Origin: Bacteroidota bacterium
GTDB taxonomy: Bacteria; Bacteroidota; Bacteroidia; B-17B0; Aurantibacillaceae
Direction of reading: 5' to 3'
DNA length: 64,000 nt
Assembly (NCBI GenBank): GCA_963169355.1
Contig: CAUJCR010000008.1
Location: 1-64,000 of the forward strand
Positions 51,158 through 60,836 of the stretch are shown here, piece after piece. Both the position numbers and the translations under genes were made by a program. Numbering within the stretch: the stretch's first letter is position 1; the number at the start of each line of letters is the position of its first letter. Below the pieces are notes generated by a model that saw nothing but the letters and a program-made list of their open reading frames with translations, was not told where the DNA came from and did not search any database.

Positions 51158-52012
51158 TTATTTTCCAATTTTATATTCTTCAAATGAGATGCCTTGCATA
51201 AATTCTTTTGAATAAATGTATTGGTAAATTAAGTCTGCCCATTGCTGATCGGTTTTACTTTTATCCAAAATTTTAGAATCAAAAGGTTTACTATAATGTA
51301 TGCGCACGTTTTTATCCTTGGCTACAAACATCTCATCGGGCAAAAACAACATTTCTATATTTGCTTTAATGCCTATTTTTTTACGGAAATTTGCAAAATT
51401 ATAAAAGAACTTAGAATTCTCTCCCTCAATAAACACAGGCTGTATCATACGTTTATGATCGATGGCTTGAGTAACAAAACTTTTTTTCCATTTCAAATCT
51501 CTTACTAAGCCATTTTGCTTACGCGATACTAACCCTGCTGGAAAAAATAAAACGGCGCTTTCTGTTCTAAATACTTCATCCATGGTACGTAACGAGCGGG
51601 TAGAAGAAGCGCCTACTTTATTAACGGCTACAAAAATCTCATCATAATTTTTTAAATTCTTTAAAATGTCATTCACAAAGAAAAATACATCTTGTCTTAC
51701 CTCGCCAACCGATTTAATTAAAGACATTCCATCTAACCCACCTAATGGGTGATTAGCCGCAACAACCACTGAACCTGTTTTAGGAACTAACTCGGCATGA
51801 ATAGAATGCACTTTTACGCCCAACATATCTAAGGCTTTACGGTTAAATTCTAGTCCACGCTCGTCTTTAAGCACCTCCATAGCATGATTAATTTCATCTT
51901 CATGTAGCTTCTTCTTAAGCCAATTAATCACAAAACGAGGTAGCCACTTATATAATTTATAAGCCTTCTCTTTTAAAATTTTTTCTACATCTATAAATTT
52001 TTTCGCCTCCAT
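51158..52012 (-). CDS. GlsA-like O-acyltransferase (PlsC fold)
   Basis: The 284-residue protein has the PlsC acyltransferase motif in VAANHPLGGLDGMSLIKSVG (HPLGGLD replacing the usual HxxxxD: His followed four residues later by Asp), and VLFFPAGLVSRKQNG (block III FPEG-like). It resembles GlsA, the O-acyltransferase that adds the second fatty acid in glycine-lipid synthesis in Bacteroides, and OlsA-type enzymes. A GlsB-like partner is at 22162. Membrane-associated. The ATG at 52012 is chosen because a GTG at 52024 lies in the -7 box. Confidence 0.8.
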   Translation of the reverse strand: MEAKKFIDVEKILKEKAYKLYKWLPRFVINWLKKKLHEDEINHAMEVLKDERGLEFNRKALDMLGVKVHSIHAELVPKTGSVVVAANHPLGGLDGMSLIKSVGEVRQDVFFFVNDILKNLKNYDEIFVAVNKVGASSTRSLRTMDEVFRTESAVLFFPAGLVSRKQNGLVRDLKWKKSFVTQAIDHKRMIQPVFIEGENSKFFYNFANFRKKIGIKANIEMLFLPDEMFVAKDKNVRIHYSKPFDSKILDKSKTDQQWADLIYQYIYSKEFMQGISFEEYKIGK

Positions 52013-52023
52013 ATAAAGTGGCA

Positions 52024-52052
52024 CAAAGATAATCTAATTGTTAATATCTCAA
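52024..52052 (-). promoter_or_regulatory. promoter of the acyltransferase-ispF unit
   Basis: On the minus strand TTG (52050-52052) and TATCTTTG (52024-52031) fit the Bacteroidota promoter with an 18-bp spacer. The predicted start is within a few bases of the ATG at 52012. Confidence 0.65.
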
Positions 52053-52200
52053 CAGGTCAATTTTCAATTTTAAACTTCAGCACATTTTCACTTCATCTCT
52101 CAAAAAGCCCGTCATTACAAATAAAAGAGCGATTAAGTTCATTTTACTAATACAAAAAACTTTTAAGAAAAATCCCATTAGCTTTCAAAATTATCAACAA

Positions 52201-52240
52201 AGTGGTAAAAAATGGGTGAAAGTGGTAAAAAGTGGTAAAA
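52201..52240 (+). promoter_or_regulatory. four 10-bp tandem repeats, probable MraZ operator
   Basis: AGTGGTAAAA occurs at 52201, 52221 and 52231, with a degenerate unit AATGGGTGAA at 52211, so all four units are in phase at one helical turn. They end 7 bp before the mraZ -7 box and would place a repressor over the -33 region. MraZ proteins of other bacteria bind tandem G-rich boxes spaced by about 10 bp before their own gene, so autoregulation of the dcw cluster is very likely. Confidence 0.75.
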
Positions 52241-52247
52241 TTTTAGT

Positions 52248-52255
52248 TATTTTTG
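52248..52255 (+). promoter_or_regulatory. -7 box of mraZ (dcw cluster promoter)
   Basis: TATTTTTG matches TAnnTTTG, 24 bp before the mraZ ATG. The -33 position is occupied by the tandem repeats and shows no TTG. Confidence 0.55.
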
Positions 52256-52279
52256 ACCAATTCAATTAAAAACTAAGCA

Positions 52280-52750
52280 ATGACAAGCCTTATAGGAGAA
52301 TATGAATGTAAAGTAGATGCCAAGGGGCGTTTCATGTTTCCTGTTCAGTTAAGGAAACAGCTTGAAGATGTATTTGAGAAGGGTTTTGTAATTAATCGAA
52401 ACTTACATCAAAAGTGTTTAGTGCTTTATCCAATACAAGAGTGGAATAAACTCAATAAAAAATTGAGTAAGCTTAACCGCTTAATTAAAGCGAATGATGT
52501 TTTTGTAAGAAAATTTACAGGAGGAGCAACCAGTGCCGATGCTGATAATACAGGTCGTGTTTTATTACCTAAAGCTTTAGTGGAGTATGCCGATATAAAA
52601 GCTGATATAAAAGTATTAGGAAGTAATAATGTGATTGAGATATGGGATAAGAAATTGTATGAGCAATTCTTATCACAAGATTTGAATATTGAAAAATTAG
52701 CCGAAGACGTTTTAGGAAACTTAAATTTTAATGATGGAGATGATGAGTAA
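52280..52750 (+). CDS. mraZ: transcriptional regulator MraZ
   Basis: MraZ is a ring-forming DNA-binding protein and usual repressor of the dcw cluster. The 156 residues contain two SpoVT/AbrB-like domains, with the conserved GEYECKVDAKGRFMFPVQLR and ADADNTGRVLLPKALVEYA motifs. It is the first gene of the cluster; four 10-bp repeats upstream are its probable operator. Its 3' end overlaps the start of rsmH by 8 bp, so translation is coupled. Confidence 0.96.
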   Translation: MTSLIGEYECKVDAKGRFMFPVQLRKQLEDVFEKGFVINRNLHQKCLVLYPIQEWNKLNKKLSKLNRLIKANDVFVRKFTGGATSADADNTGRVLLPKALVEYADIKADIKVLGSNNVIEIWDKKLYEQFLSQDLNIEKLAEDVLGNLNFNDGDDE

Positions 52751-53651
52751 CACTTATCATATCCCCGTTCTTTTACAACCTTGCATAGATGGCTTAAACA
52801 TAAACCCAAATGGTGTTTATGTAGATGTAACTTTTGGTGGCGGAGGACATTCTAAAGAAATTTTAAAACACTTATCCGAAAAAGGACGTTTATTTTCTTT
52901 TGATCAAGATGAAGATGCAAAAGCAAATATTCCAGAAGATAAGCGACTAACCTTTATACCTCATAATTTTAGATATATCTCTAATTACTTAAAGTTATAT
53001 GGTGTTACACAGGTAGATGGCATCTTAGGAGATTTAGGTGTTTCATCGCATCAGTTCGATAAAGGTGAGCGTGGTTTTTCAACTCGCTTTGATGGAGAAT
53101 TAGACATGCGTATGAATCAAAAAAGCGAATTAAGTGCTAAAAAAATTCTGAACACCTATGATGTGAAACAACTCACGCACATGTTTAAAGAATATGGAGA
53201 AGTAGATAACGCTTTTAAACTAGCTAACATCATTGTTGAATCAAGAATGAATCAAACACTTGAAACCACACATCAGTTTAAAGAGGTTATTAAACCTTGC
53301 ACACCAAAGTTTGAAGAGAGTCGTTACCTCGCCAAAGTATATCAAGCCATACGTATTGAAGTAAACCAAGAGATGGAATCGTTAAGAGAATGTTTAACTC
53401 AATGCGTGCAATTAATAAAACCAGGTGGTCGATTGGTAATGATGAGTTATCACAGTTTAGAAGATAGATTGGTGAAGAATATTATTAAAACAGGAAACGT
53501 GGAAGGAAAAGAAGAAAAGGATTTAGTGTTTGGAAAGGTAACTAAGTTTTTTAAATCCATTACTTCAAAACCAATAACACCAAGCGAAGAGGAAATTATT
53601 AAAAATTCAAGAGCACGAAGTGCCAAATTAAGAATAGCAGAAAAAATTTAA
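52743..53651 (+). CDS. rsmH: 16S rRNA (cytosine-1402 N4)-methyltransferase
   Basis: RsmH methylates C1402 in the ribosomal P site. The 302 residues include YHIPVLLQPCIDGLNINPNG, the SAM motif YVDVTFGGGGHSKEIL, DGILGDLGVSSHQFDKGERG and the C-terminal MSYHSLEDRLVKN. It overlaps mraZ. Several ATG codons lie at 52731-52745; the ATG at 52743 is preceded by GGAG at 52736-52739 and matches the family start. Confidence 0.96.
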   Translation: MSNTYHIPVLLQPCIDGLNINPNGVYVDVTFGGGGHSKEILKHLSEKGRLFSFDQDEDAKANIPEDKRLTFIPHNFRYISNYLKLYGVTQVDGILGDLGVSSHQFDKGERGFSTRFDGELDMRMNQKSELSAKKILNTYDVKQLTHMFKEYGEVDNAFKLANIIVESRMNQTLETTHQFKEVIKPCTPKFEESRYLAKVYQAIRIEVNQEMESLRECLTQCVQLIKPGGRLVMMSYHSLEDRLVKNIIKTGNVEGKEEKDLVFGKVTKFFKSITSKPITPSEEEIIKNSRARSAKLRIAEKI

Positions 53652-60368: not shown

Positions 60369-60836
60369 ATGAAAGAGAGCGTAATTGGACAAAAAACATT
60401 TTCGATTAGTCGTGAGACTGATCATAGCTTTGAATTTGTAGCTACAATAAATGATGTAACATTTATTAATGACTCTAAGGCTACCAATGCTAAGGCTACA
60501 GTAGAAAGTATTAATTCTGTAGATACTGAATTGGTAGTCATATTAGGTGGAGATGATATGAAAACAGATTATTCTTGGTTTAATAATGTAAATTATTACA
60601 ACATAAAAACGGTGATATATTATGGTCGTCGTTTCCCCGAAATTAAGAATATCTTTAATAAGCATGTCATGCTTATTGTAGCAGATAATTTAGAAAGTAG
60701 TGTAGCTATAGCAAAACAAAATGCTTTAAAAAATCAGGCTGTCTTATTTTCGCCAGCTTGTCCTAGTTACGACCCCTTTGATAATTATAAAAATCGTGGA
60801 AACAAGTTTAAAGAACTTGTTTTACAAAACAGTTAA
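60369..60836 (+). CDS. free-standing MurD C-terminal-domain protein
   Basis: The 155-residue protein aligns only with the third (glutamate-ligase C) domain of MurD: FEFVATINDVTFINDSKATN (FINDSKATN at 32-40 is identical to MurD 325-333), VVILGGDD, and LFSPACPSYDPFDNYKNRG. It has no UDP-binding and no ATPase domain. The rest differs strongly from the intact MurD next door, so it is an old, maintained copy rather than a fresh tandem duplication or a frameshift fragment. It has its own ATG one base after the murD stop and sits before ftsW. The GG-x-x-K lysine of MurD is replaced or shifted (GGDDMK). A binding or regulatory role is inferred. Confidence 0.8.
   Translation: MKESVIGQKTFSISRETDHSFEFVATINDVTFINDSKATNAKATVESINSVDTELVVILGGDDMKTDYSWFNNVNYYNIKTVIYYGRRFPEIKNIFNKHVMLIVADNLESSVAIAKQNALKNQAVLFSPACPSYDPFDNYKNRGNKFKELVLQNS

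Follow-up and report, generated by a model that had tools for sequence, protein, structure and literature searches.

The 64,000-nt stretch analyzed here (the window) carries, at its dcw promoter, an array of 10-nt repeats that is very probably an MraZ operator, a site of an ordinary type that is conserved in many relatives. We read the sequence in this way because of the array itself, the identity of the MraZ product, the conservation of the boxes in relatives, the result from genomes lacking mraZ, and the near-background occurrence of the pattern elsewhere. By analogy with other bacteria, the operator most likely autorepresses the dcw cluster, and the joint reading, an MraZ operator with negative autoregulation of mraZ and the dcw genes, is one in which we place high confidence. 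What this survey adds is the exact box in Bacteroidia, a conserved weak slot in the window's own family and, above all, an accessory motif beside the array.

Read directly, positions 52201–52240 consist of four contiguous 10-nt slots in strict 10-bp register, and the order across the promoter is TTATCAACA-A-AGTGGTAAAA-AATGGGTGAA-AGTGGTAAAA-AGTGGTAAAA-TTTTAGT-TATTTTTG, all on the + strand. Putative MraZ box 1 (52201..52210) is AGTGGTAAAA, which is also the unit-1 consensus in 31 loci of the window's own family. Putative box 2 (52211..52220) is a degenerate unit, AATGGGTGAA, known from direct reading, while putative boxes 3 (52221..52230) and 4 (52231..52240) are again AGTGGTAAAA, both by direct reading and by family consensus. 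Downstream lies TATTTTTG (52248..52255), which keeps a fixed spacing to the boxes in relatives and which we take to be a Bacteroidota −7 promoter box of the TAnnTTTG type; 24 nt separate it from the mraZ ATG at 52280. The original prediction of three exact units and one degenerate unit at 10-bp spacing, placed before a TAnnTTTG box and mraZ, is confirmed by this reading. A sigma-70 scan of 51950–52400 gave no promoter on the + strand.

Tandem Repeats Finder returned the array unprompted (52199–52240, period 10, 4.2 copies, score 56). The units are A-rich and in phase, as they might be in a tandem repeat produced by chance or slippage, or in a series of phased A-tracts that merely bends the DNA, but we consider either origin exceedingly improbable. 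We counted as an array any 10-mer of at least three different letters that recurs unchanged in three of four consecutive 10-bp slots. The real window has one, here only, and 300 second-order Markov simulations of 64 kb had none, on which ground a chance repeat was rejected. Bending by A-tracts is countered by the family's slot 2, which keeps its TGG core and loses its A-tail, and by the other classes, in which the core is kept and the tail is often GGAA or GAGA. The pattern GTGG-N6-RTGG-N6-GTGG occurs without mismatch at two places in the 3.2-Mb assembly from which the window derives, namely the array and the inside of a 903-nt open frame.

The gene behind the array (52280..52750, + strand) encodes a 156-aa product that is MraZ by Pfam (PF02381, 1.8e-24) and by NCBI equivalog (TIGR00242, 111.1 bits, cut-off 98.35). 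Both DxxxR motifs of MraZ (D13/R17 and D89/R93) are invariant in an alignment of ten sequences, and the window's protein matches four distinct chain sequences from solved MraZ structures. An ordinary dcw cluster headed by mraZ follows, in the order rsmH, a 148-aa ORF in the ftsL position, a penicillin-binding protein gene, murE, mraY, murD, ftsW, murG and murC. The first of these, rsmH (mraW; 52731..53651, + strand), was identified by NCBIfam profile (TIGR00006, 323.3 bits, cut-off 154.3), as was the penicillin-binding protein, and murD was identified by Pfam; murE, mraY, ftsW, murG and murC are names presumed from the translations. Directly after murD, a 155-aa ORF (60369–60836) encodes a stand-alone MurD C-terminal domain, 38% identical to the C-terminal domain of the full murD. 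Such a relative follows murD in seven of nine loci (the window, G018, G004, G006, G007, G014 and G024), without a stop codon in any matched stretch; none was found in the other two, G026 and G023. The stand-alone domain diverges faster than murD. On the other side of the promoter, a divergent neighbor (51158–52024, − strand) matches the lyso-glycine lipid O-acyltransferase GlsA (NCBIfam, 316.8 bits, cut-off 260), and this GlsA-like gene and the dcw promoter have a common intergenic region.

With the window's own genome counted in both cases, 56 of 60 genomes have mraZ, as do 234 of 247 in the phylum. We compared 224 regions upstream of mraZ, comprising 35 from the window's own family, 40 from other families of the class, 69 from other classes and 80 named loci; at least four of the named loci repeat the upstream sequence of unnamed ones. 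The loci are also related among themselves, and the counts are of loci and not of independent events. A locus was scored as having boxes if, no more than 250 bp upstream, two or more GTGG cores kept the 10-bp register over a span of four slots; one masked family locus was excluded. By this measure they stand before mraZ in 33/34 loci of the own family, 35/40 of other class families, 58/69 of other classes and 78/80 named loci, while 0–1.5% of shuffled sequences reach the same score. Fewer than two cores were found in 11 of the 69 loci from other classes, five of the 40 from other class families, a single family locus (L037), and two named loci, of which L098 offers 21 nt of upstream sequence only and L109 is the same locus as L037. 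A looser RTGK core occurs at least twice in register in all 69 loci of other classes, but also in about 7% of shuffles. The units in other classes are often GTGGGGAA or GTGGGAGA and adjoin TTGACTTT- or TTGACA-like sequences. The boxes thus track mraZ and not one promoter type. Conservation of the repeats in relatives, which the original prediction had proposed as its own test, thus extends through the family and the class to other classes.

Two loci in this survey, L112 and L170, come from MAG contigs titled Klebsiella pneumoniae and Candidatus Nitrotoga. Their MraZ is 48–49% identical to that of the window, a level resembling that of Flavobacterium MraZ, and they are probably mislabelled or contaminated bins.

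The number of units differs between families. Four slots are present in 31 of 35 loci of the own family and three slots in 33 of 40 loci of other class families. In the 31 four-slot loci, the consensus of slots 1, 3 and 4 is AGTGGTAAAA, and slot 2 is mostly AATGG with a variable tail; the TGG core of this slot is conserved at 94–100% and the next four positions at 35–68%. Because slot 2 is weak across these 31 loci, the degenerate unit is a common feature of the family and not a product of decay in the window's own genome. The family loci without four slots are L012 and L018, which have GGG for TGG in slot 2, L039, which has three full units, and L038, which is masked. The original prediction had presented four units as a novelty against the three or so reported elsewhere; this does not hold, as four repeats had already been reported for Burkholderia cenocepacia, according to PMC7761207.

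Thirteen of the 247 genomes and four of the first 60 lack mraZ, and rsmH was found in 12 of these 17. In all 12, the 400 bp before rsmH are free both of paired RTGG cores in register and of a motif like TTWTYMACA, the accessory motif beside the window's array. In the wider flank of about 1.5 kb, one RTGG pair occurs in two of the 12, some 1.2–1.3 kb away, three cores in register occur in none, and a TTWTYMACA-like motif lies far upstream once each in two. Nine of the 12 genomes come from one distant family and several have coding-like sequence directly before rsmH, so that the operon promoter may lie elsewhere and the control is weak; the comparison is therefore supportive only. The conservation before mraZ supports the predicted MraZ operator at the dcw promoter, and the lack of arrays within 400 bp upstream of rsmH in these 12 genomes is in keeping with it. 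In one mraZ-less genome (L246, G064), the rsmH match has one TAG inside the aligned stretch.

Away from mraZ the pattern falls nearly to background. The strict pattern GTGGKAANNNGTGGKAA, matched in 30 of 60 genomes, gave 37 matches, of which 31 are at mraZ and six elsewhere, and the reversed control gave four. Of these six, four fall inside long open frames and one, L330, in the spacer that separates two frames; the sixth (L335, G055) is on the opposite strand in the intergenic region before mraZ. We looked among these matches for further MraZ targets and rejected them, their number being near the control level (six against four). The box array is thus nearly restricted to the mraZ promoter. 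At L335, the match belongs to an extra phased GTGGGAA pair before mraZ on the opposite strand, which is followed by TTTTTCAACA.

These distributions bear on the proposal that the array is the site of another regulator, with MraZ a mere neighbor. Binding of MraZ to the array is predicted from sequence, and the array adjoins a second conserved motif, TTWTYMACA, that another factor may read, both of which leave some room for such a regulator. We nevertheless regard it as very unlikely, in that boxes of the same type precede mraZ in other classes whose promoter types differ, the pattern is near background away from mraZ and was not found within 400 bp before rsmH in the 12 mraZ-less genomes, and the box fits the Mollicutes site as published (PMC8475190).

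If the array is an MraZ operator, its position relative to the promoter suggests how it could act. Counted from the last box core, TAnnTTT[GA] starts 15 or 16 nt downstream in 33 of 34 loci of the own family, in 71 of 79 named loci and in 20 of 39 from other class families, and in the window the last box ends 7 bp before the −7 box. The boxes there cover the stretch in which Bacteroidota promoters have their −33 contact. MraZ is a ring-shaped oligomer of two-domain subunits, as seen in solved structures. We infer MraZ binding, its stoichiometry and the sign of control as follows: several subunits would set onto the four GTGG/ATGG cores, which, one helical turn apart, would present the same face of the DNA; with 7 bp between the array and the −7 box, the ring, once bound, would lie over the promoter's upstream half and exclude RNA polymerase; and the outcome would be negative autoregulation, acting on mraZ and on the dcw genes that follow.

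Comparison with characterized sites shows both likenesses and differences. The MraZ boxes of E. coli are reported, in work by Eraso et al. from 2014, to be TGGG repeats with 5-nt spacers. The two systems have in common G-rich direct repeats at about one turn, a location at the gene's own promoter and repression, the last being inferred for the window; the box here is AGTGGTAAAA and not of the TGGG type, and the promoter class and position are different. For Mollicutes, PMC8475190 relates from Fisunov et al. 2016 a site made up of AAAGTG[T/G] in direct repeats, and the likeness lies in the core (AAAGTGG here), the direct repeats and the mraZ promoter. In the account of PMC8475190, the motif occurs in Mycoplasma genitalium only in the mraZ promoter of the chromosome, and here this is nearly so. 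Different from the Mollicutes arrangement described there are the TAnnTTTG promoter that follows the boxes, the four slots with a degenerate second, and the TTWTYMACA that precedes them. In Burkholderia cenocepacia, four 7-nt repeats are separated by 3-nt spacers (PMC7761207), which resembles the window in having four units in 10-bp register before mraZ. That site, however, is described as lying downstream of the −10 box and overlapping the transcription start, whereas the array here lies upstream of the −7 box.

The sign of control is taken from Mycoplasma genitalium, in which MraZ represses its own cluster and loss of mraZ raised mraW, MG_223 and ftsZ, as related in PMC8475190. We think it unlikely that MraZ binds the array as an activator or as a growth-phase dependent switch and not as a simple repressor. 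The array stands upstream of the −7 box, where activation is possible, unlike the Burkholderia and E. coli sites, which PMC7761207 places downstream of the −10 box; overexpression of MraZ in Mycoplasma gallisepticum was, moreover, accompanied by raised FtsZ levels, as told in PMC8475190. On the other hand, the 7 bp between the last box and the −7 box leave little room for polymerase, and the M. genitalium result points toward repression. We therefore retain negative autoregulation, with the qualification that the means of interference may differ here, given where PMC7761207 places the sites of Burkholderia and E. coli. Among the top open-licence PMC matches, judged by titles and the starts of abstracts, we recognized no published Bacteroidota MraZ operator. 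The sequence evidence extends the MraZ operator to Bacteroidota. It supplies an exact box, AGTGGTAAAA, together with a constant spacing to the promoter and a second slot that is weak in this family, and all three could be examined in cultivable Flavobacterium.

Directly before box 1, with one base between, lies the accessory element TTATCAACA (52191..52199, + strand), a case of the conserved motif TTWTYMACA. The original prediction missed it because its reading began at 52201. TTWTYMACA occurs no more than 35 nt before the first box core in all 34 family loci with an array, in 79/79 named loci and in 22 of 39 loci of other class families (five more have it inverted only); it was found before the boxes in none of the 69 loci of other classes and occurs in 0.35% of shuffled 35-nt stretches. 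Its offset is −11 or −12 in 32 family, 75 named and 18 other class-family loci. Its distance to TAnnTTT[GA], by comparison, is 56–58 bp with four units, mostly 46–48 bp with three, and 39 bp in six named loci. The element thus keeps its distance to box 1 and not to the promoter. With a looser pattern, a further copy is seen 18–19 bp upstream of the element in many genomes of the window's genus, but not in the window.

TTATCAACA is a separate conserved site for a further factor, perhaps DnaA or an activator of growth genes. As a tentative proposal, the Bacteroidia dcw promoter could be a composite switch in which a TTWTYMACA box, read by DnaA or a growth regulator, abuts the MraZ operator, the two jointly controlling division-gene transcription. 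The reader of TTWTYMACA would also act at purH, where 35 or 45 bp separate it from the −7 box, and near the rpsL and transketolase promoters, and at the dcw promoter the two proteins would touch or compete. The fourth unit moves TTWTYMACA one turn further from the promoter with the 11–12 bp to box 1 kept, as would be expected if they did so. The motif beside the operator offers a testable proposal for the way in which growth or replication might be tied to division-gene expression.

Candidate readers of TTWTYMACA are DnaA and some growth regulator. The E. coli DnaA-box consensus is TTATNCACA, which TTATCAACA fails by an A at position 6. Forms of the element with C at this position occur at L039 and L057; the L039 element is TTATCCACA, with a second TTATCCACA and TGTTGATAA close upstream. 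In the window's genus, 13 of 14 dnaA loci have TTGTTNATA a short way upstream of the gene, and no match to the motif was listed before dnaA in the eight readable loci of other class families. The E. coli-type DnaA box was rejected as an origin marker, there being no obvious origin-like TTATCCACA cluster in three single-contig genomes (origin not located). The window's assembly likewise has no obvious TTATCMACA cluster (origin not located), and TTATCMACA is rarer there than the reversed pattern (97 against 176). One close pair of boxes was found in this assembly, 335 bp apart with no further boxes near, beside frames that we take from their translations to be ribonucleotide reductase-like and pyrF-like. 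Pairs of TTTTCAACA gave 19 matches in 79 genomes and eight in the control; in six of the 15 pair loci that were read, the pair lies between ychF-like and transketolase-like frames (names from translations). Since only one of these six has a third box within about 300 bp, the pairs were rejected as an origin by the measure of box counts.

TT(T/A)TCAACA is a proposed Mollicute DnaA-box consensus, and TTATCAACA fits it letter for letter; the review that states this consensus also doubts it (PMC3322544), and the search here turned up no cluster resembling an origin. According to PMC4674748, a box of a Cyanothece origin reads TTATCAACA.

The occurrence of the motif elsewhere bears on the same choice. 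TTTTCAACA-N20-50-TAnnTTTG is matched 186 times in 41 genomes, mraZ sites included, and the reversed pattern 86 times; the counts in the window's own genome are one and four. The motif precedes purH in 16 of 21 loci and in 13 of 14 within the own family. Among these 13, the distance from the start of the nearest TTTTCAACA to TAnnTTTG is 35 bp at ten loci and 45 bp at three; before purH in the window's genome, TTATCAACA and TTTTCAACA are ten bp apart. Thirty TTTTCAACA-TAnnTTTG loci were read, five of which have no downstream ORF by the rule used, and ten chosen from the rest were searched with Pfam. These gave purH (AICARFT), ribosomal proteins S12 and L13, transketolase N, an EF-Tu-type GTPase, HU, dihydroorotate dehydrogenase, RimP, a phosphoglucomutase-type enzyme and NADH dehydrogenase chain 3. 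This gene list looks like growth genes in general, which speaks against DnaA as the reader, as do the lack of listed motifs before dnaA in the eight loci of other class families, the lack of an origin-like cluster and the rarity of TTATCMACA in the window's own genome. Pairs of TTTTCAACA about 20 bp apart also stand before transketolase-like frames in several families. Examples of TTWTYMACA upstream of the TAnnTTTG promoters of growth genes are L320 and L350 (purH) and L310 (rpsL), and further examples at transketolase genes are L281, L282, L289 and L290; at growth genes the motif sometimes occurs twice, at a spacing of about 10 or 20 bp.
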